Assembly: GCF_001029505.1 (NCBI RefSeq)
Contig: NZ_LEKH01000003.1
Coordinates: 186,001 to 250,000, forward strand
Direction: 5' to 3'
DNA length: 64,000 bases
From: Rubrobacter aplysinae
Lineage (GTDB): Bacteria > Actinomycetota > Rubrobacteria > Rubrobacterales > Rubrobacteraceae
The notes beneath the pieces are model-generated. The model was not told the DNA's origin. It saw only the letters and a list, made by a program, of their open reading frames with translations, and searched no databases. Positions 53,324-63,986 of this stretch are shown here, piece after piece; the stretch's first letter is position 1, and each line of letters begins with the position of its first letter. Made by a program: the position numbers and the translations under genes.

Positions 53324-53640
53324 GTAACGCCGCCTCCACGACTCTGTTTACCGGGACCCATAAGGAAAGTGCGATCCTACACCAGCAATCGGAGCCACGG
53401 AGGTATGTTCTCCCGTAGCCCGGACCGCCAAACACCCGGCTGGGCTCGGATGAATTCGGGTAAAAGACCCGTATCGGGGTTTTGTAGGGATTTATGGGGC
53501 CACACTGTGAAAGCTTTATTTGCCGTGCCCGCCATATACGTTTACATTACCTTTGTGTAGAAACGAGTTTTTGAGCAAACCAGCGGTCGAGACTACGGGT
53601 CTTGTCCGGTATAGCGACGAGCTAGGGGAGTTAGGGTTAC
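53324..53640. other. 317-bp intergenic region before the USP fusion gene
   Basis: Contains an AT-richer block at about 53470-53580 in which a promoter for the stress gene is expected, but no box pair is convincing. GGGGAG lies about 11 nt before the ATG. No small ORF, repeat or RNA is apparent. Confidence 0.5.
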
Positions 53641-56076
53641 ATGTACAAAGAGGTCTACGTCCCGGTAGATAACTCCGACTACTCCAACCAGGCGTGCGTC
53701 ATAGGGGTAGACGTTGCGCGCAGGTTCGGCGGCAGGGTCGCCGGCAGCCACGCCTACGCCGCAAAGATGCACGACGTGCGTTTCCGGCAGATGGAGTCGG
53801 GTCTCCCGGAGGAGTTCCGCGACGAGGACGAGATGAAGCGGCAGCGCAAGATCCACGACCAGCTCATCACCAAGGGCCTCGAGATCATCACCGACTCCTA
53901 CATAGACGTACTCGAGCCCCTGTGCGAGAAGCACGAGGTCGAGCTCGTCCGCCGTTCCCTGGAAGGCAAGAACTTCAAGGTCATCGCCGACGACGTGAAC
54001 GAGGGCGACTACGACCTCGTCGTCATGGGCGCGATGGGTATGGCAGCCGTCAAGGATACGGTGCTTGGTAGCGTGACCGAGCGTGTCAGCCGCCGGCTGC
54101 AGAGCGCGGACTGCCTGATCGTCAAGGACCTCGACCGCAACCCGTTCGACCACATCGTCGTCACCGTGGACGGCTCGCCGAAGTCGCTCGGCGGCCTCAA
54201 GCACGCCATAGATCTCGCGAAGGAGTTCGGTGGCACGGTCGAGGCCATCAGCGTGTTCGACCCGTACTTCCACTACGCGATGTTCCACTCTATCGCCGGG
54301 GTGCTTTCGAGCAAGGCGCAGAAGGTTTTCCGCTTCAAGGAGCAGGAGAAGCTGCACGAGGAGATCATCGACTCGGGTCTTGCAAAGATCTACACCGCCC
54401 ACCTCGAGGTCGCCCGCAAGATCGCCGAGGACGAGGGCGTGGATCTCAAGACCACTCTCCTCGCCGGCAAGCCCTTCGAGCAGACCTACAAGTACGTCGA
54501 GGAGGTGCAGCCCACGACGGTCGTGATGGGCCGCATCGGCTACCACTCCGACGACGAGATGGACATGGGCTCGAACGCCGAGAACATGATGCGCTACCTG
54601 CCGGTAAACGTCATGGTTACCAACTTCGAGTACCAGGCTCCCGACCTGTACACCGCCGCCGAGCACATGACCTGGACCAAGGAGGCCCTGGAGCGGATGG
54701 ACCGCATCCCCGGCTTCGTGGTCGGCATGGCTACGGGCGCGGTGCTGCGCTACGCGCTGGAGAAGGGCTACACGGTCATCACCGGCGGCGTCATAGACGA
54801 GGTCATCGAGAATATCCTCCCGCCGGGTGCTATGGACTCCATGCGCGCCGTCGGCGACGAGATGCGCCGCCGCGAGGCCGAGGGCGAGGACGGATCGGTA
54901 GACTCCCTGTTCCAGGACTTCGACGAGCGAACCGCGAACAAGAACGCCGCGAATGGGACCAACGGCAACGGCTCAAACGGCAACGGTCACAAGTCAGAGA
55001 AGGAAGAGTTCCTCGCAAACGGCGCGGGCGGCTACGGCCAGTCCGAGTACGAGGGTGATGTGGTCGGGGTATCGGAGGAGGTACAGAACGAGATATCCCG
55101 CGCAGCCCAGGGCCACGACCGCTACGAGTGCGATAACTGCCGCTACGTGGCGAAGGGCATGCCCGCCCAGTGTCCGGTCTGCGGCATGGACCCGACCCAC
55201 TTCCACGCGGTTGACGCCGAGATCACCCAGATCCAGGGCGACGAGAGCCTGGAGACCTCGAACGTCTACGACGGCCGCGAGCTGCTGTGGACCGACGACG
55301 CAAAGCGCCTGCTGGACTCGCTAGAGGCCTGGCAGGAGAAGCGCCGCGTCATGGCCCGCGTCGAGAAGAGCGCCCTCAAGAAGGGCTACACCACGATCAC
55401 CCGCGAGTACGTCGAGCAGTGCTACCGCGAGGAGACCGGCCGCGACTACTACGAGACGACATCCGGCCCCACGAGCACCGACGCCCACGCCTACCCCCAG
55501 CGCGACACAAACGGTAGCAACGGCAGTGCGCCAGTGGTAGAAGAGACGAACGGCAACGGCTCCGCCCCGACCGGCTCGGCCTGCCCGGTAAGCCACGCCA
55601 AGGAGAAGGTCGAGCAGGAGACCGGCGCGAGTTGCCCGGTAGACCACTCCTCGTTCGCAAAGGCCGGAGCCCAGGTCCCCGAGGGCGGCTCCAAGGAGTT
55701 CGCCTGGACCGGCGACGCCATCGAGCGGCTGGAGCGCGCGCCGAGAGGCTTCATGCGCAACATCTCCCGCAACATGACCGAGAAGCTCGCCCGCGAGCGC
55801 GGCGTACAGGAGATAGACCTCCCGCTCGTCGAGGACTCGCTGAGCGGGGCGCGCGACACGATGGAAGACGTTATAACGGGTCAGATCTCCATCGCAGACC
55901 TCGCCAAGGACCACGGCCAGTCCGTCGAGGGCGAGAACGGCGAGGCCCCGCACCCGAACATGACCGTCACCATGGTCTGCCCAACCTGCACCGAGGAGCT
56001 AGAGGGCGTCCAGCCCCCCGAGGAGTGCCCGGTCTGCGGAGCCCCCGGCGAGGAGTTCGAGGCCAAGGAGCTATAA
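53641..56076 (+). CDS. Universal-stress / PCP_red / rubredoxin-like fusion protein
   Basis: 811 residues. Two UspA domains (about 1-155 and 162-320) both keep the ATP loop G-x2-G-x9-G-S (GAMG...GS, GRIG...GS). Three repeats resembling the PCP_red domain start at Trp345, Trp550 and Trp689 (MTWTKEALERMDRIPGFV, LLWTDDAKRLLD, FAWTGDAIERLERAPRGF). Two rubredoxin-like zinc ribbons lie at Cys497/500/511/514 and Cys780/783/796/799. Two CPV-S/D-H motifs (Cys648, Cys665) and Asn-Gly-rich linkers separate modules. Cytosolic. The domains point to a stress-responsive, ATP-binding redox scaffold; followed by a ferredoxin gene. I know no characterised protein with this architecture. Confidence 0.85.
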   Translation: MYKEVYVPVDNSDYSNQACVIGVDVARRFGGRVAGSHAYAAKMHDVRFRQMESGLPEEFRDEDEMKRQRKIHDQLITKGLEIITDSYIDVLEPLCEKHEVELVRRSLEGKNFKVIADDVNEGDYDLVVMGAMGMAAVKDTVLGSVTERVSRRLQSADCLIVKDLDRNPFDHIVVTVDGSPKSLGGLKHAIDLAKEFGGTVEAISVFDPYFHYAMFHSIAGVLSSKAQKVFRFKEQEKLHEEIIDSGLAKIYTAHLEVARKIAEDEGVDLKTTLLAGKPFEQTYKYVEEVQPTTVVMGRIGYHSDDEMDMGSNAENMMRYLPVNVMVTNFEYQAPDLYTAAEHMTWTKEALERMDRIPGFVVGMATGAVLRYALEKGYTVITGGVIDEVIENILPPGAMDSMRAVGDEMRRREAEGEDGSVDSLFQDFDERTANKNAANGTNGNGSNGNGHKSEKEEFLANGAGGYGQSEYEGDVVGVSEEVQNEISRAAQGHDRYECDNCRYVAKGMPAQCPVCGMDPTHFHAVDAEITQIQGDESLETSNVYDGRELLWTDDAKRLLDSLEAWQEKRRVMARVEKSALKKGYTTITREYVEQCYREETGRDYYETTSGPTSTDAHAYPQRDTNGSNGSAPVVEETNGNGSAPTGSACPVSHAKEKVEQETGASCPVDHSSFAKAGAQVPEGGSKEFAWTGDAIERLERAPRGFMRNISRNMTEKLARERGVQEIDLPLVEDSLSGARDTMEDVITGQISIADLAKDHGQSVEGENGEAPHPNMTVTMVCPTCTEELEGVQPPEECPVCGAPGEEFEAKEL

Positions 56077-56101
56077 CGCGGCCGCGATAACGGCAAACCA
56101 C

Positions 56102-56135
56102 AGAGCCCCGGCCCACAGGATGGGTTCGGGGCTCT
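56102..56135 (+). terminator. Strong hairpin between the USP fusion and ferredoxin genes
   Basis: A perfect 9-bp stem (AGAGCCCCG with CGGGGCTCT) with an inner CCCA/TGGG pairing, followed by TTTC. The short U-run suggests partial termination or message stabilisation, giving unequal amounts of the two proteins. The ferredoxin ribosome site (GAGAGAGG) follows. Confidence 0.6.
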
Positions 56136-56160
56136 TTCAACGGAGCGAGAGAGGCACGAG

Positions 56161-56430
56161 TTGGCGCAAACCCACAAGGTCACCTTCAAGCAGAGCGGCA
56201 TCACCATAGACGTGGCCGAAGACGAGTACATCCTCGAAAAAGCCGAGGAAGCCGGCCTCACCCTCCCCTACGACTGCCGCAGCGGAACCTGCGTCACCTG
56301 CTCCCAGATGTGCCTCTCCGGCGAGATAGACCAGGACATGGCCTTCGCCATCGACGATGACGACGCCGAGCAGGGCTGGCGACTCATCTGCATCGGCAGC
56401 CCGCTATCTGATGTGGAACTAGATATTTAG
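56161..56430 (+). CDS. Plant-type [2Fe-2S] ferredoxin
   Basis: 89 residues. YDCRSGTCVTCSQMC holds the C-x4-C-x2-C ligands, and the fourth Cys is in WRLICIGSP. It is a one-electron carrier in the cytosol. TTG start after GAGAGAGG. Position directly behind the USP/rubredoxin fusion suggests it donates to or accepts from that protein; that is inference. Confidence 0.93.
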   Translation: MAQTHKVTFKQSGITIDVAEDEYILEKAEEAGLTLPYDCRSGTCVTCSQMCLSGEIDQDMAFAIDDDDAEQGWRLICIGSPLSDVELDI

Positions 56431-56454: not shown

Positions 56455-57957
56455 TTACGCTGCTCCCTGCACCATCTCTAGAGCATCGCGATAGATGAAT
56501 GGAACCCAATAAGTAGGAACTTCTTTAGCTTTACGTTTCTCAAAGAACCCAATTTCGACAAGTTTTTCGGCCATTGAAGAGGCTTCTGTCCTATCAACCT
56601 CCCAAACTTTCATTAAGCTTTCGACAGTCTGTTCAGTCTTCTGCCCATCTAAAAGGTTTAGCCAAGGTTCAAGTGTAGGATGCTCAGCACAAAGAGTCTG
56701 CTCAAATCTAACTCTAGAAACCGGCTTCAAAGCTTCTTTCAAAGCACCTCTCTCAAACAACGCTTCTTCTGGAGGTTCTTCTAACCCAGTCTCTAATCTC
56801 TGCAATTGCTCTTCCCTCGCAGAAGATAAGAAATGTATCAACTCGCGAGGGGCAGTCTGGTTTATGGGGTCTCCTGTACGAGAAATTATCCATCCAAGAG
56901 TGTCTGGATTCCTAGAACCTACATCAACTTGTCTAGGAAACAAACGATAGAAAAATTCTTCTTGCCTTTGTGAATCGCTCAAGACTTCATCAAAATTTAC
57001 GTTGTATGCTTCTCGGAGCGTGGTGTTATGTAGCAGTCTGCGAATTACTAGATTTAGCAGATTAGTTTTGTCCCACTTTATCGTAGTGCTTTTGGTTATA
57101 TGGCTTGCTTCGCGGAATCCTTCTCCTCTAATCCTCTGCCATATATCGCTGCGTAGAAAAATTTTAAGCGATATACGACTGTACTGTATTAGGTCTAAGT
57201 AGACTCTAAAGAGCGCGCGCAGAGCGTTACGCTCTAGCTCCTCAGTTTCTGCGAAAGCTACATCTAAGCGATCAAGAAGTAGCCATAAGTTGATATCGTT
57301 CTCTTTTAGAGTCGCCTCTGCTCGTTCAAGCAAGTCATCAACTGAAATCAATCCAAAATCTCTATGTTCTGCACTAGGTTCACGAAATATAATCTTCCCG
57401 GAAAGCCCTACTGGTGTTCCAGTAACTGGATCAATACGAAGTCCCCCTTCCAACGACTCTGCTTTGAACAAGCTTCGCACGTAATCTAAGGCAGAACGTA
57501 GTCTTGCTCGCAAAGTTACTTGTTTTTGCAGAAGTCCAGCATCCTCTAAAGCACTCGTGATCTGTTTTGCATCATCGTTGTATATCCCATAGTCTCGAAG
57601 ATGATCTGCGATTAATGACAATAAGTAGAGTTTCCACAACTCTCGCAGTTCCCTCTCGCTCGTAGGAGGATCTTCTGTGAGAGAACCAAAAGCCGTTGCT
57701 CCGCGAGGATTCTCGGCTGGTACGATCATTACCCCATGCTCGTCAAACAGGCGATCTTCACGATAATTAAGCAATGCATATATAGCGCTTTTCCCGGCTC
57801 CCTTAGTACCGTAGACTATGTCTACTTCTCCTGTATATATTCTGCGCCACTGATCAGTCTCAACAAAGTATTTACCTAGCTCATCTACTTCTTCCTCGGC
57901 TACCCGCTTTCCAAAGGTCGTGTCTTGAAGAACTTGCTCTTTAGAGACTGGAGCCAT
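56455..57957 (-). CDS. AT-rich P-loop ATPase, Sll1717-like
   Basis: 500 residues. GKYFVETDQWRRI, then Walker A GTKGAGKSAIYALL (near 55), a conserved block NPRGATAFG, and Walker B LWLLLDRLDVAFA (near 225). The C-terminal part carries winged-helix-like segments (TVESLMKVWEVDRTEASSMA). It resembles the P-loop ATPase family named after cyanobacterial Sll1717, a group often seen as isolated or defence-associated genes (recalled, not checked). Codon use is far more AT-rich than both neighbours, a sign of recent transfer. ATG 8 nt after GGAGGG. No partner effector is adjacent. Confidence 0.75.
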   Translation of the reverse strand: MAPVSKEQVLQDTTFGKRVAEEEVDELGKYFVETDQWRRIYTGEVDIVYGTKGAGKSAIYALLNYREDRLFDEHGVMIVPAENPRGATAFGSLTEDPPTSERELRELWKLYLLSLIADHLRDYGIYNDDAKQITSALEDAGLLQKQVTLRARLRSALDYVRSLFKAESLEGGLRIDPVTGTPVGLSGKIIFREPSAEHRDFGLISVDDLLERAEATLKENDINLWLLLDRLDVAFAETEELERNALRALFRVYLDLIQYSRISLKIFLRSDIWQRIRGEGFREASHITKSTTIKWDKTNLLNLVIRRLLHNTTLREAYNVNFDEVLSDSQRQEEFFYRLFPRQVDVGSRNPDTLGWIISRTGDPINQTAPRELIHFLSSAREEQLQRLETGLEEPPEEALFERGALKEALKPVSRVRFEQTLCAEHPTLEPWLNLLDGQKTEQTVESLMKVWEVDRTEASSMAEKLVEIGFFEKRKAKEVPTYWVPFIYRDALEMVQGAA

Positions 57958-59427: not shown

Positions 59428-59910
59428 CTACCTTGAAGTGGCTCTGGAGAGCCTGCCTCTCTGGTCTAATATACCGGCCTTCTTCTGATATCTACCACGC
59501 CGTCCAGAGCCCCAGGCGTAGAGCGCCATCCCCGCTATCATGGAGACCACGAAGGCGAACACCGGCGTGAGCCCGGTCGAGAGCGCCGCCACCGCCGGGC
59601 CCGGACAGAAACCGGATAGCCCCCATCCGAGGCCGAACGCCGCGGCGCCTCCCAGAAGACGCCCGTCCAGGGCGGTCTTCGCGGGCAGCGCGAACCCGCT
59701 CGCGAGGACCGGACGAGGGCGCTTGAGGATAAAGAAGAACGCCGGAACCGTGACCAGGAGCGCCCCGCCCATTACGAACGCCAGCGTGGGATCCCACCGA
59801 CCGGCGAAGTTCAGGAAACCTATTACCTTGGCCGGGTTCATCATGCCGGACAAGGCGAGGCCAAGCCCGAACGTGGTACCGGAGATCAAAGCTACCAAGA
59901 TCCGTAACAT
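59428..59910 (-). CDS. YeeE/YedE-type (DUF6691-like) sulfur transporter half, second gene
   Basis: About 160 residues, four hydrophobic segments. GLALSGMMNPAKVIGFLNF and GWGLSGFCPGPAVAAL are the paired YeeE/YedE signatures; the Cys in GFCPGP is the conserved substrate-relay residue. ATG 6 nt after GGGAGGGG. It forms a split transporter with the gene just upstream, moving thiosulfate or a related sulfur species. Confidence 0.9.
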   Translation of the reverse strand: MLRILVALISGTTFGLGLALSGMMNPAKVIGFLNFAGRWDPTLAFVMGGALLVTVPAFFFILKRPRPVLASGFALPAKTALDGRLLGGAAAFGLGWGLSGFCPGPAVAALSTGLTPVFAFVVSMIAGMALYAWGSGRRGRYQKKAGILDQRGRLSRATSR

Positions 59911-59937
59911 TACTATCCCCTCCCTTCTCGGAGTCAC

Positions 59938-60354
59938 TCAGAAAACGTGCTGTGTAAAGAAAACGGTGAGGCTCGCCACCGCGAAGAACACGGCCGTGGC
60001 GGAGATCGAACGCCACGAGAGCCGCGCTATGCCACACACGCCGTGGCCGCTGGTACACCCGGAGCCCAGACGTGTGCCGAAACCCACGAGGAGCCCCGCC
60101 ACCACCAGGACCGGCAATGACGCCTGGATCTCTACCGCACTACCGTCCGTTGCGATGAGGTAACCCGCCGCACCGAGCACCAGGCCGCCGGCGAAGGCCG
60201 CGCGCCAGCCAACTTCGGAGCCCTGGGGCGTGAGCAAACTGCCCAGGATGCCGCTCACGCCGCTGATCCGGCCGTTCATCAACAGCAGTATCGCCGCCGC
60301 CAGGCCGATGAGCATCCCGCCGGCGAGCCCGCTGAAAGGGGTAAAGTTCTCCAA
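59938..60354 (-). CDS. YeeE/YedE-type sulfur transporter half, first gene
   Basis: About 138 residues, four helices. LMNGRISGVSGILG and GTRLGSGCTSGHGVCGIARL are the YeeE/YedE repeats, with Cys in GSGCTSGHGVCG. TTG start 5 nt after GAGGAGAT; ATG further in would lose a helix. Partner of the downstream half; the MBL persulfide-dioxygenase-like gene lies upstream on the same strand. Confidence 0.9.
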   Translation of the reverse strand: MENFTPFSGLAGGMLIGLAAAILLLMNGRISGVSGILGSLLTPQGSEVGWRAAFAGGLVLGAAGYLIATDGSAVEIQASLPVLVVAGLLVGFGTRLGSGCTSGHGVCGIARLSWRSISATAVFFAVASLTVFFTQHVF

Positions 60355-60389
60355 GCTATCTCCTCTTCGCAAACGGTATCTTGGTTGGT

Positions 60390-60416
60390 TCTGGTGTTTC
60401 TGGTGTTTCCGGTACG
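60390..60416. repeat. 9-bp tandem repeat (x3) upstream of the YeeE pair
   Basis: tctggtgtt twice, then tccggtacg, ending 35 bp before the TTG start. An 11-bp direct repeat CCGGTACGCGC (60409 and 60430) overlaps its end. Confidence 0.55.
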
Positions 60417-60503
60417 CGCCTTTCGGCACGCGTCCGGTACGCGCAGCCCGCTACCCATCCCCAAAGTCGCGGATGGGCCTATCTTCTATGTTTTCCGGGA
60501 TTT

Positions 60504-61262
60504 CTAGGACATGTTCGCCTTCAAGGACTCCGCGAGCTGGTAGACCGGGTTGAGCTTCTGCGGGTTATCCCGGTCCATGTAGTCTACGAACTCTTCCTTG
60601 CTCGCGAACCCGAGCTTGGCGTTCTCCCTCTTCTGATCTCCGAGCGTCGTATAGCTGCGGCCGTTATAGTCGTGTCCGGGCCAGACTTCGAGCTCGTCCG
60701 GCAGGCTCCTCAAAGTGTGGTACAGCGTGTGGTACTGCTGGGTGGCGTTGCCGTTTAGAAGGTCCGTACGGCCACAGGAGCCTATTAGCATGGCGTCCGC
60801 GGTCAGCAGCCTCCCCGGGACCAACACGCTCATTAGATCCTTGGCATGTCCCGGCGTGTACAAGAACTCCAGCGTAAGCTCCCCGAGCTCCAGCCTGTCG
60901 CCGTCCTCGAGCCGGACGTCCACCCCGGAGGCCGGCGCCTTCTCGTGCATGACGAGCTTCGCCGTAGTCTTGGCCTTCAGCTCCTTCGCGCCGGAGACGT
61001 GATCCGCGTGAGTGTGCGTGTCTATAAGATAACGTGGCCTCAACCCATGCTCGAAGAGGTAGTCGAGCATCGGCTCGACCATCTCCACCTCCGGGTCAAT
61101 AAGCGCCGCCAGCTTCGTCTCCGGGTCGGCGACCACGTAGCCCAGGCACCCGCGCGGCACCCGGAACTGCTCGAACAGATAGTCTCCAGAGCCTCCAGAT
61201 GGACGCCCGTTCGAGCCGTCTGTCCGCCCCACGGCCGCCGTACCCTCTGATCCCTGGGTCAT
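60504..61262 (-). CDS. MBL-fold persulfide-dioxygenase-like protein
   Basis: 252 residues. IDTHTHADHVSGAKEL is the HxHxDH metal motif; YTPGHAKDLMSVLV and VWPGHDYNGRSYTT add the other ligands, a layout close to ETHE1-type dioxygenases that oxidise glutathione or other persulfides to sulfite. ATG 7 nt after AAGGAGG; the longer frame upstream runs through the promoter and is rejected. Divergent from the ArsR gene. Confidence 0.88.
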   Translation of the reverse strand: MTQGSEGTAAVGRTDGSNGRPSGGSGDYLFEQFRVPRGCLGYVVADPETKLAALIDPEVEMVEPMLDYLFEHGLRPRYLIDTHTHADHVSGAKELKAKTTAKLVMHEKAPASGVDVRLEDGDRLELGELTLEFLYTPGHAKDLMSVLVPGRLLTADAMLIGSCGRTDLLNGNATQQYHTLYHTLRSLPDELEVWPGHDYNGRSYTTLGDQKRENAKLGFASKEEFVDYMDRDNPQKLNPVYQLAESLKANMS

Positions 61263-61306
61263 CAACCCACCTCCTTGGCGAGAACTTTTATCAACTACAT
61301 GCCGAT

Positions 61307-61334
61307 ATAATAATATACAAGCTAATGATGTCAA
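61307..61334 (-). promoter_or_regulatory. Promoter of the MBL/YeeE genes
   Basis: On the minus strand TTGACA (61329-61334), 16-bp spacer, TATTAT (61307-61312). Its -35 lies back-to-back with that of the arsR promoter. Confidence 0.7.
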
Positions 61335-61339
61335 ACTCC

Positions 61340-61366
61340 TTGAGGACATATACATCGCTGTATAAT
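61340..61366 (+). promoter_or_regulatory. Promoter of the arsR gene
   Basis: TTGAGG (61340-61345), 15-bp spacer, TATAAT (61361-61366). The short spacer is compatible with a promoter controlled by a regulator bound between the boxes. Confidence 0.55.
61349..61364. promoter_or_regulatory. Dyad operator candidate TATACA-TCGC-TGTATA
   Basis: A perfect 6-bp inverted repeat with 4-bp centre, placed within the arsR spacer and -10. ArsR-family repressors bind such AT-rich dyads over promoters, so it probably mediates autorepression and perhaps control of the divergent MBL gene. Confidence 0.6.
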
Positions 61367-61433
61367 CATATATACGCTGACCGGTTGCTACGTGGTATCG
61401 AGCGTCCCGGATGCGAGGGTTGAGCACAAGAAG

Positions 61434-61469
61434 TTTTGAGATTTCGAGATGTTGTTTTGAGATGTTGAA
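61434..61469. repeat. Imperfect 9-bp-type repeat before arsR
   Basis: Repeated ttttgagat / ttcgagatg / ttttgagatg motifs between the promoter and the start codon. More degenerate than the other arrays. Confidence 0.35.
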
Positions 61470-61485
61470 AGGGCGGTAGATTCGG

Positions 61486-61890
61486 GTGGCGGAGACTAGC
61501 GGGGAACATAAGATGAGTTCGGGGCAGCGTTTGCCGGAGGAGGCGCTAGAGATACTCGCGGAGAGGTTCAAGGTTTTCTCCGAGCCGATGCGGCTGAAGT
61601 TGATCTACGCGCTAATGGACGGGGAGAAGACCGTCTCCGAGTTGATGCAGAGTACGGGCGGGATGCAGGCAAACGTCTCCAAGCACCTGGGTATGCTGCT
61701 CGACGCCGGCGTGGTCGGCCGCCGCAAGCAGGGTCTACAGGCATACTACCGGATCGTGGACGCATCCATCTACGAGATGTGCGAGACGGTCTGCGGTTCC
61801 CTGGAGGAGCGGCTCGCCGCAGACCTCGAAGTCTTCTCCTCTTTCAGGCGCACGCACGAGCAGCCCTCCATCCCGGAGACCCGGGAGTAA
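61486..61890 (+). CDS. ArsR-family regulator with a CxxxC pair
   Basis: 134 residues (GTG start) or 125 from the ATG at 61513; neither has a strong ribosome site. The winged helix is clear: FKVFSEPMRLKLIYALMDG, TVSELMQSTGGMQANVSKHL and LLDAGVVGRRKQGLQAYYRI. Two cysteines in MCETVC near the C-terminus could form a redox or persulfide switch, as in sulfur-sensing ArsR relatives, though the spacing differs from SqrR/BigR. Its neighbours are all sulfur-linked. Confidence 0.88.
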   Translation: MAETSGEHKMSSGQRLPEEALEILAERFKVFSEPMRLKLIYALMDGEKTVSELMQSTGGMQANVSKHLGMLLDAGVVGRRKQGLQAYYRIVDASIYEMCETVCGSLEERLAADLEVFSSFRRTHEQPSIPETRE

Positions 61891-63158: not shown

Positions 63159-63986
63159 CTAGAGCACGGCGCCTCCGTTCTGGAGGAGGATAAAGCCCCC
63201 CATAACCACCAGGAAGACCGCGAAAGCCTTCTTGAGGCTCTGCTGCGGGATGAAGCGCACCAGATAGGCGCCGGCGAAGCTCCCGGCGATGGCGAGCGCG
63301 GTGAAGAGCCCCATGAAGGCCCACGGGATCTCGACCTGCCCCAGATATCCCACGAACCCGGCGGCTGACTTCATCGCGATGACGAGCAAGGACGTACCCA
63401 CGGCCACCTTCATCGGCACCTTGCCCAGCAGGACTAGCGCGGGCACTATGAGGAACCCGCCTCCTACCCCGACGAGTCCGGTTAGCACGCCCACCGCTAG
63501 CCCCTCGGGCACGATGAGCCCCAGAGACATGCCTTTGGAGACTTTAGAGGAGCCTGACTCTCCGGCACCATCGGCGTCATCAGCACCATCGGCCCCGTCG
63601 GCGGCGCCGGATGCCGTGTCGCGGAACATGAAGACCGCCGCCGCGATCATCACGCCGGCGAAGAGTATGAGCTGGGCCGCACCGGAGAAGAAGACCGCGA
63701 GCCTCGCTCCAAGATACGTCCCGCCCATCGCCACCGCCCCGAAGATCAGGGCTACACGCAGATCCACGCTCCCGGCCCGCCAGTGCCCGTAGGCCCCAAA
63801 GAGGCTCGTGATCCCAACCACCGCCAGGCTCATGGCGATAGCCTCTTTAGCCCCGAAACCCAGAACATATACGAACACGGGAACGGCCAGAATCGAGCCG
63901 CCACCGCCGAGCAACCCGAGTGAGAGCCCGATCAAGACCGCCAGCACCAACCCGACAACATTCACCATATCTGAGCCTTTCGCCAT
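63159..63986 (-). CDS. TauE/SafE-family sulfite/organosulfonate exporter
   Basis: 275 residues, about eight helices in two related halves: GLSLGLLGGGGSILAVPVFV and GVLTGLVGVGGGFLIVPALVL are the paired signatures. A Gly/Ala/Asp loop (about 127-141) is encoded by a 9-bp repeat. ATG at 63986, or at 63968 after AAAGG, which has the better ribosome site. It would remove sulfite made by the persulfide dioxygenase. Confidence 0.92.
   Translation of the reverse strand: MAKGSDMVNVVGLVLAVLIGLSLGLLGGGGSILAVPVFVYVLGFGAKEAIAMSLAVVGITSLFGAYGHWRAGSVDLRVALIFGAVAMGGTYLGARLAVFFSGAAQLILFAGVMIAAAVFMFRDTASGAADGADGADDADGAGESGSSKVSKGMSLGLIVPEGLAVGVLTGLVGVGGGFLIVPALVLLGKVPMKVAVGTSLLVIAMKSAAGFVGYLGQVEIPWAFMGLFTALAIAGSFAGAYLVRFIPQQSLKKAFAVFLVVMGGFILLQNGGAVL
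63564..63608. repeat. 9-bp tandem repeat (x5) inside the TauE gene
   Basis: Units ggcaccatc, ggcgtcatc, agcaccatc, ggccccgtc, ggcggcgcc, in frame, encoding the Asp-Gly-Ala-rich cytoplasmic loop between the two halves. Confidence 0.65.

Follow-up and report, generated by a model that had tools for sequence, protein, structure and literature searches.

What role does a non-photosynthetic bacterium have for a protein that combines stress-protein domains with three copies of a domain known from chlorophyll synthesis? This question is raised by a locus of Rubrobacter aplysinae, which we analysed within a window (the whole stretch of DNA under study, 64,000 nucleotides of contig NZ_LEKH01000003.1). 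One open reading frame there joins two Usp domains, three PCP_red repeats and two rubredoxin-like ribbons, and a ferredoxin gene follows it (Table 1). Rubrobacteraceae are non-photosynthetic and are known for their tolerance of radiation and desiccation. To our knowledge, PCP_red occurs as the tail of a chlorophyll enzyme and in small orphan proteins, and we know of no function assigned to it.

Table 1. Features of the fusion locus, in order of position in the window.
Feature	Position	Strand	Basis and remarks
Upstream element TGTGAA(C)nnTTTATTTGC	53506..53523	+	Alignment of upstream regions; core in 25 loci
Box TTACATTAC	53542-53550	+	18 nt beyond upstream element
Fusion ORF, 811 aa	53641..56076	+	ATG start; order Usp-Usp-PCP_red-ribbon-PCP_red-CP/His-PCP_red-ribbon
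Usp domain 1, residues 1-165	53641..54135	+	Pfam; ATP-type motif complete; invariant residues
Usp domain 2, residues 166-330	54136..54630	+	Pfam; tandem Usp fold match to 3loq
PCP_red repeat 1, Trp345	54673..54801	+	Pfam; 45.5 bits scored singly
Rubredoxin-like ribbon 1, C497x2C500x10C511x2C514	55123..55206	+	Pfam; Cys invariance
PCP_red repeat 2, Trp550	55288..55419	+	Pfam; weak in window copy, 21.9 bits singly
Cys-Pro-[VI]-x-His pair, C648-PVSH and C665-PVDH	55582..55647	+	Candidate haem or metal site in variable linker
PCP_red repeat 3, Trp689	55705..55836	+	Pfam; 43.7 bits singly; model matches 2kru, 2l09, 2ynm
Rubredoxin-like ribbon 2, C780x2C783x12C796x2C799	55975..56061	+	Pfam; Cys invariance
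Hairpin between fusion and ferredoxin genes	56102..56135	+	Folding; strong hairpin in 16/16 genomes
Plant-type [2Fe-2S] ferredoxin, 89 aa, Cx4Cx2C...C	56161..56430	+	TTG start; Pfam, NCBIfam

Profile searches bore out the domain composition that the initial annotation had claimed. Pfam Usp (PF00582) matched the fusion in two stretches (118.6 bits against a cut-off of 24), PCP_red (PF08369) in three (95.2 against 32.5) and RUBY_RBDX (PF21349) in two (38.5 against 26.5), and a chance origin of these domains is excluded by the Pfam E-values together with their conservation across the family. Scored singly, PCP_red repeats 1 and 3 exceed the cut-off and repeat 2, around Trp550, falls below it; the same repeat reaches 34.9 bits in the fusion of genome G290. 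The tryptophans of all three repeats and the eight ribbon cysteines are invariant in an alignment of 23 fusion homologues, and iron and zinc are not distinguished by sequence at these Cys4 sites. Both Usp domains had been called ATP-type, which holds fully for the first, where the G-2x-G-9x-G(S/T) motif reads whole (G130, G133, G143, S144), and only in part for the second, which keeps its glycines (G297, G300, G310) but has Gly instead of Ser at position 311 in most relatives. No Pfam, NCBIfam or PADLOC model spans the whole protein, PADLOC returned no match when a defence role was checked, and Pfam found neither a nitrogenase-type domain nor the di-iron domain of rubrerythrin in it. The best BchB model scored 57.6 bits against 509, with the C-terminal part alone aligned. 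The further statement that no characterised example was known also stood, since we found none in the accessible literature, outside which most subscription journals lie.

Structure models gave a similar picture of the parts. For PCP_red repeat 3, modelled from a mixed alignment of repeats and BchB tails (pLDDT 79), the best PDB matches at ranks 1 to 3 were 2kru, 2l09 and 2ynm_D (TM 0.78–0.81 at 1.2–1.4 Å; best E 0.0038, for a small domain), respectively the NMR structure of a BchB PCP_red domain, a stand-alone PCP_red protein of Nostoc, and DPOR. After these, the model resembles the helical lid domains of the RuvBL, RuvB and FtsH AAA+ proteins at E 0.09 and above. In the full-length model only the head is usable; it matches tandem Usps, with 3loq in first place. 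Because of the low confidence of this model (pLDDT 58) the arrangement of domains was not read from it. In the fusion, a tandem Usp head like those of Archaeoglobus 3loq and Rv2623 thus leads into a long arm whose linkers are rich in Gly and Asn.

The fusion belongs to the core proteins of Rubrobacteraceae, in single copy, and was not found elsewhere among 396 genomes of the phylum. By tool count, 36 of 39 Rubrobacteraceae genomes have a match; that in G345 is a generic Usp only, leaving 35 of 39 with the fusion or pieces of it, and G173 is the sole genome of at least 90% completeness without it. The Usp head as a query had no match at 1e-18 outside the family among the 396 phylum genomes, and elsewhere in the phylum PF08369 picked up a BchB-like gene in G202 plus hits below the cut-off, which yielded no coherent Usp fusion. 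Scanning a species-level genome collection, which detects close relatives only, gave 24 loci, all from Rubrobacter, Rubrobacteraceae or actinobacterial bins, and near-full-length relatives are 74–79% identical to the window fusion. Viral contigs gave no fusion match; among the plasmid tblastn matches listed, the fusion query found haloarchaeal Usps aligning to the head only, and the PCP_red query found only BchB or marginal hits. The Usp head is conserved more strongly than enolase, with complete heads across genera 87–91% identical to that of the window versus 75–82% for enolase in the same genomes (63% for the divergent G173).

Codon adaptation points to a highly expressed gene. Measured against a reference set of ribosomal proteins, EF-Tu, EF-G and RNA polymerase, the CAI of the fusion (0.774) was above all 87 background genes, which were chosen by a codon-position heuristic and may include some false genes; enolase reached 0.735, the BchB-like gene 0.672 and the ferredoxin 0.625, the last being average. 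The fusion, a probably cytosolic protein, is therefore probably very abundant. It also exceeds the BchB-like gene in three other genomes when the reference of the window genome is used. The published xylanophilus value near the genome maximum of 1.17 carries no locus tag and refers to either the fusion or BchB (PMC4510606). Upstream of the gene, 25 loci retain the conserved element and a TACATTAC-like box though the flanking sequence is unalignable, and together the two form a probable promoter plus operator. Allowing at most one mismatch, in-family matches to the element sit only before the fusion gene of relatives (the copy in the window, one base shorter, falls outside the search pattern). 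As no other in-family site occurs in 13 genomes at one mismatch, no co-regulated set was found, and the element looks gene-specific.

The gene that follows is, as had been claimed, a [2Fe-2S] ferredoxin (Fer2 57.6 bits; fdx_plant 81.6 bits, cut-off 81.15), and its cysteine motif was present in eight of the eight distinct sequences compared. Adjacency held for most genomes, with the ferredoxin on the same strand and at most about 200 bp downstream of the fusion in 29 of the 33 Rubrobacteraceae genomes that show the end of the fusion (counted by hand). It failed in the others: the ferredoxin lies 3.2–4.2 kb downstream in G248, G379 and G119, and in G216 the sole close ferredoxin is on another contig. 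By eye, a LuxR-type regulator and a multicopper-oxidase-like gene stand between the two genes in G248 and G119, and beside the fusion in G216. Such a pair adjoins the fusion at L104:4249-8394, L117:1637-4998 and L102:5881-8790, and in the first two intervenes between fusion and ferredoxin. G173 lacks the fusion yet keeps a close homologue of the ferredoxin. In several genomes a second ferredoxin, similar to the first, lies close to genes for iron-sulphur repair and to nitrate-reductase-like ones (by eye). At L113:1379-7797 and L116:3954-11000, a second close homologue is clustered with RIC-like iron-sulphur repair genes and other ferredoxins, in L116 also with a NarG-like gene. The genes flanking the fusion-ferredoxin pair differ between genera. 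The predicted hairpin between the two genes varies in sequence among the 16 genomes in which it was folded, is strong in every one and is more than two standard deviations stabler than shuffles in 13 of them. The fusion and ferredoxin genes travel together, but they are separable and unlike in codon bias. The switchable redox hub that the initial annotation had proposed, with the ferredoxin as its partner, is weakened by the average codon adaptation of the ferredoxin against the top-ranked fusion, by the strong hairpin between the genes, by G216 and G173, and by the second close ferredoxins in several genomes.

Other genes of the window lie farther downstream. A 500-aa protein with a P-loop-like motif (56455-57957, minus strand) scores 71.7 bits with PDC-M28C, a candidate defence family of PADLOC, and sits in a stretch of 48% G+C versus about 65% around it; the gene is probably a recent arrival. 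Two small genes, DUF6691 and Sulf_transp, adjoin each other at 59428-60429 (minus strand); together with the metallo-beta-lactamase-fold gene (60504-61571) and the TauE/SafE gene (63159-63986) close by, they likely form a sulphur-handling group.

Within the arm, the linker ahead of PCP_red repeat 3 is 19% invariant overall, and both of its Cys-Pro motifs are present in all 28 distinct linker segments. The first, CPV-x-H, has its His at +4 in 26 segments and at +3 in two; the second, CP[IV]DH, is found in all 28. Cys-Pro motifs are known to ligate haem, for example the Cys-Pro-Trp-His-Asp of Irr (PMC11442138). The pair is a candidate haem ligand, with a zinc site equally possible.

Other PCP_red proteins occur in the same genome. 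A BchN-BchB-like pair lies side by side at L092:8005-10927, with PCP_red also borne by the BchB-like protein, and a stand-alone PCP_red protein of 69 aa is encoded about 20 kb from the fusion (L091:14466-14675, minus strand); short frames like the latter occur in many Rubrobacteraceae genomes. For its cluster, DPOR depends on three cysteines from BchN and one aspartate from BchB, and BchL is the donor (PMC7948495). In each of the five Rubrobacteraceae BchN-like proteins checked, other residues replace all three cysteines (C30, C55 and C116 in Thiodictyon numbering), and BchL was over its cut-off in none of the 39 genomes, the weak matches resembling other P-loop proteins and occurring in all 14 control genomes too. 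Because the BchN cysteines are lost and BchL is absent, the PCP_red domains of the fusion serve no working protochlorophyllide reductase, and a role as a functional DPOR partner was ruled out. These losses agree with the published statement that the BchN/BchB genes of Rubrobacteraceae do not indicate phototrophy (PMC7901476), and the lack of cluster cysteines in genes once read as a photosynthesis trace bears on the older claim of ancestral photosynthesis. The more distant BchN-like protein of G202, from another family of the phylum, retains the cluster cysteines; its BchN-BchB-like pair (L118:7112-9847) has a radical-SAM-like gene nearby.

The anatomy and predicted abundance of the fusion point to a scaffold in which the head would bind nucleotides and the arm would bind ligands and metals. 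We tentatively consider that it may be a redox and tetrapyrrole reservoir or relay. The Usp head would dimerise and bind ATP, by analogy with other tandem Usps; the arm would bind a tetrapyrrole (haem or porphyrin) via the CP/His motifs, with PCP_red assisting; and the Cys4 sites would hold iron and exchange electrons, partly with the neighbouring ferredoxin. In times of stress the protein could then store or pass on electrons and tetrapyrrole, with the nucleotide state of its head as the gate. This would fit the domains with their invariant metal ligands, the fold identity of PCP_red and of the tandem Usp, the Cys-Pro pair kept in an otherwise variable linker, the ferredoxin adjoining in most genomes, the top-ranked codon adaptation and a head conserved beyond enolase. 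However, Cys4 ribbons of the RUBY_RBDX type often carry structural zinc, C-x3-H twice could equally form one zinc site, and the ferredoxin is separable, differs in codon bias and lies across a hairpin. Rubrobacteraceae are reported to depend on manganese catalase alone and to be without cytochrome c oxidase (PMC7901476), which does not favour a large haem economy.

As likely as this reservoir is a non-redox scaffold, in which the ribbons and CP/His motifs would hold structural zinc and the PCP_red repeats would act as protein-docking helices on an ATP-binding Usp dimer, gathering partners such as the BchNB-like pair and the stand-alone PCP_red protein. The two further PCP_red-bearing proteins of the genome and the high predicted abundance suit such a structural role, and the resemblance to AAA+ lids is suggestive only; the scaffold leaves the ferredoxin neighbour unexplained, and G173 retains its BchB-like gene and small PCP_red protein without any fusion. 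Somewhat less likely is a haem or porphyrin buffer or sensor, with tetrapyrrole bound by CP/His and PCP_red, the Usp head reporting the energy state and the ferredoxin acting separately. The conserved Cys-Pro/His pair, the tetrapyrrole reductase in which PCP_red is known and the separable ferredoxin speak for it, but CxxxH pairs fit zinc, and pigment binding by PCP_red itself is not known to us.

Going further, the fusion might represent a new class of abundant stress protein, an ATP-binding Usp dimer to which tetrapyrrole-associated and redox-metal modules are attached in a flexible chain, and might serve as a main cellular buffer for electrons and tetrapyrrole, aiding the radiation and desiccation tolerance of Rubrobacteraceae; we regard this as unlikely. 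If it were true, PCP_red would have a role beyond chlorophyll synthesis. With three copies in one probably very abundant protein of a non-photosynthetic family, the role of PCP_red is directly testable on a single protein. Quite improbable is a rubrerythrin-like peroxide defence in which the ribbons pass ferredoxin electrons to an oxidant: the rubrerythrin type of the ribbon and the ferredoxin neighbour favour it, but the fusion has no di-iron domain and its Usp and PCP_red parts would go unexplained. That ferredoxin and fusion feed the BchNB pair in place of BchL, as replacement donor for a dark protochlorophyllide reductase, is favoured by the BchN- and BchB-like genes kept adjacent and by the absence of BchL, but this reading is already close to refuted by the replacement of all three cysteines that the DPOR cluster needs (PMC7948495) and by genes that are no sign of phototrophy (PMC7901476).

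Several known systems share parts of this architecture. Homologues of BchB and BchN in Rubrobacter have been described (Gupta and Khadka 2016, cited in PMC4783071); they are separate genes in the same genomes as the fusion, the BchB-like protein shares the PCP_red family, and the fusion is unmentioned in the publications consulted. The haem regulatory motif of Irr resembles the linker pair in having Cys-Pro and then His (CPWHD in Irr, CPVxH in the fusion), whereas the fusion has two such copies 17 residues apart within a linker. With the rubrerythrin-type ribbon (PF21349) the fusion shares C-x2-C...C-x2-C over the cut-off, without the rubrerythrin di-iron domain. The PCP_red domains of BchB/ChlB (2kru, 2ynm) and of the stand-alone Nostoc asr4154 (2l09) have the same fold and profile as those of the fusion, which differs in its three copies, its lack of a nitrogenase-like domain and its non-photosynthetic host. 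Finally, the tandem Usps of A. fulgidus (3loq), M. tuberculosis (Rv2623) and T. thermophilus (TTHA0350) have two Usp domains, the ATP-type glycine motif and the fold in common with the fusion, but they stop after the second Usp, where the fusion adds an arm of 480 residues with further domains.
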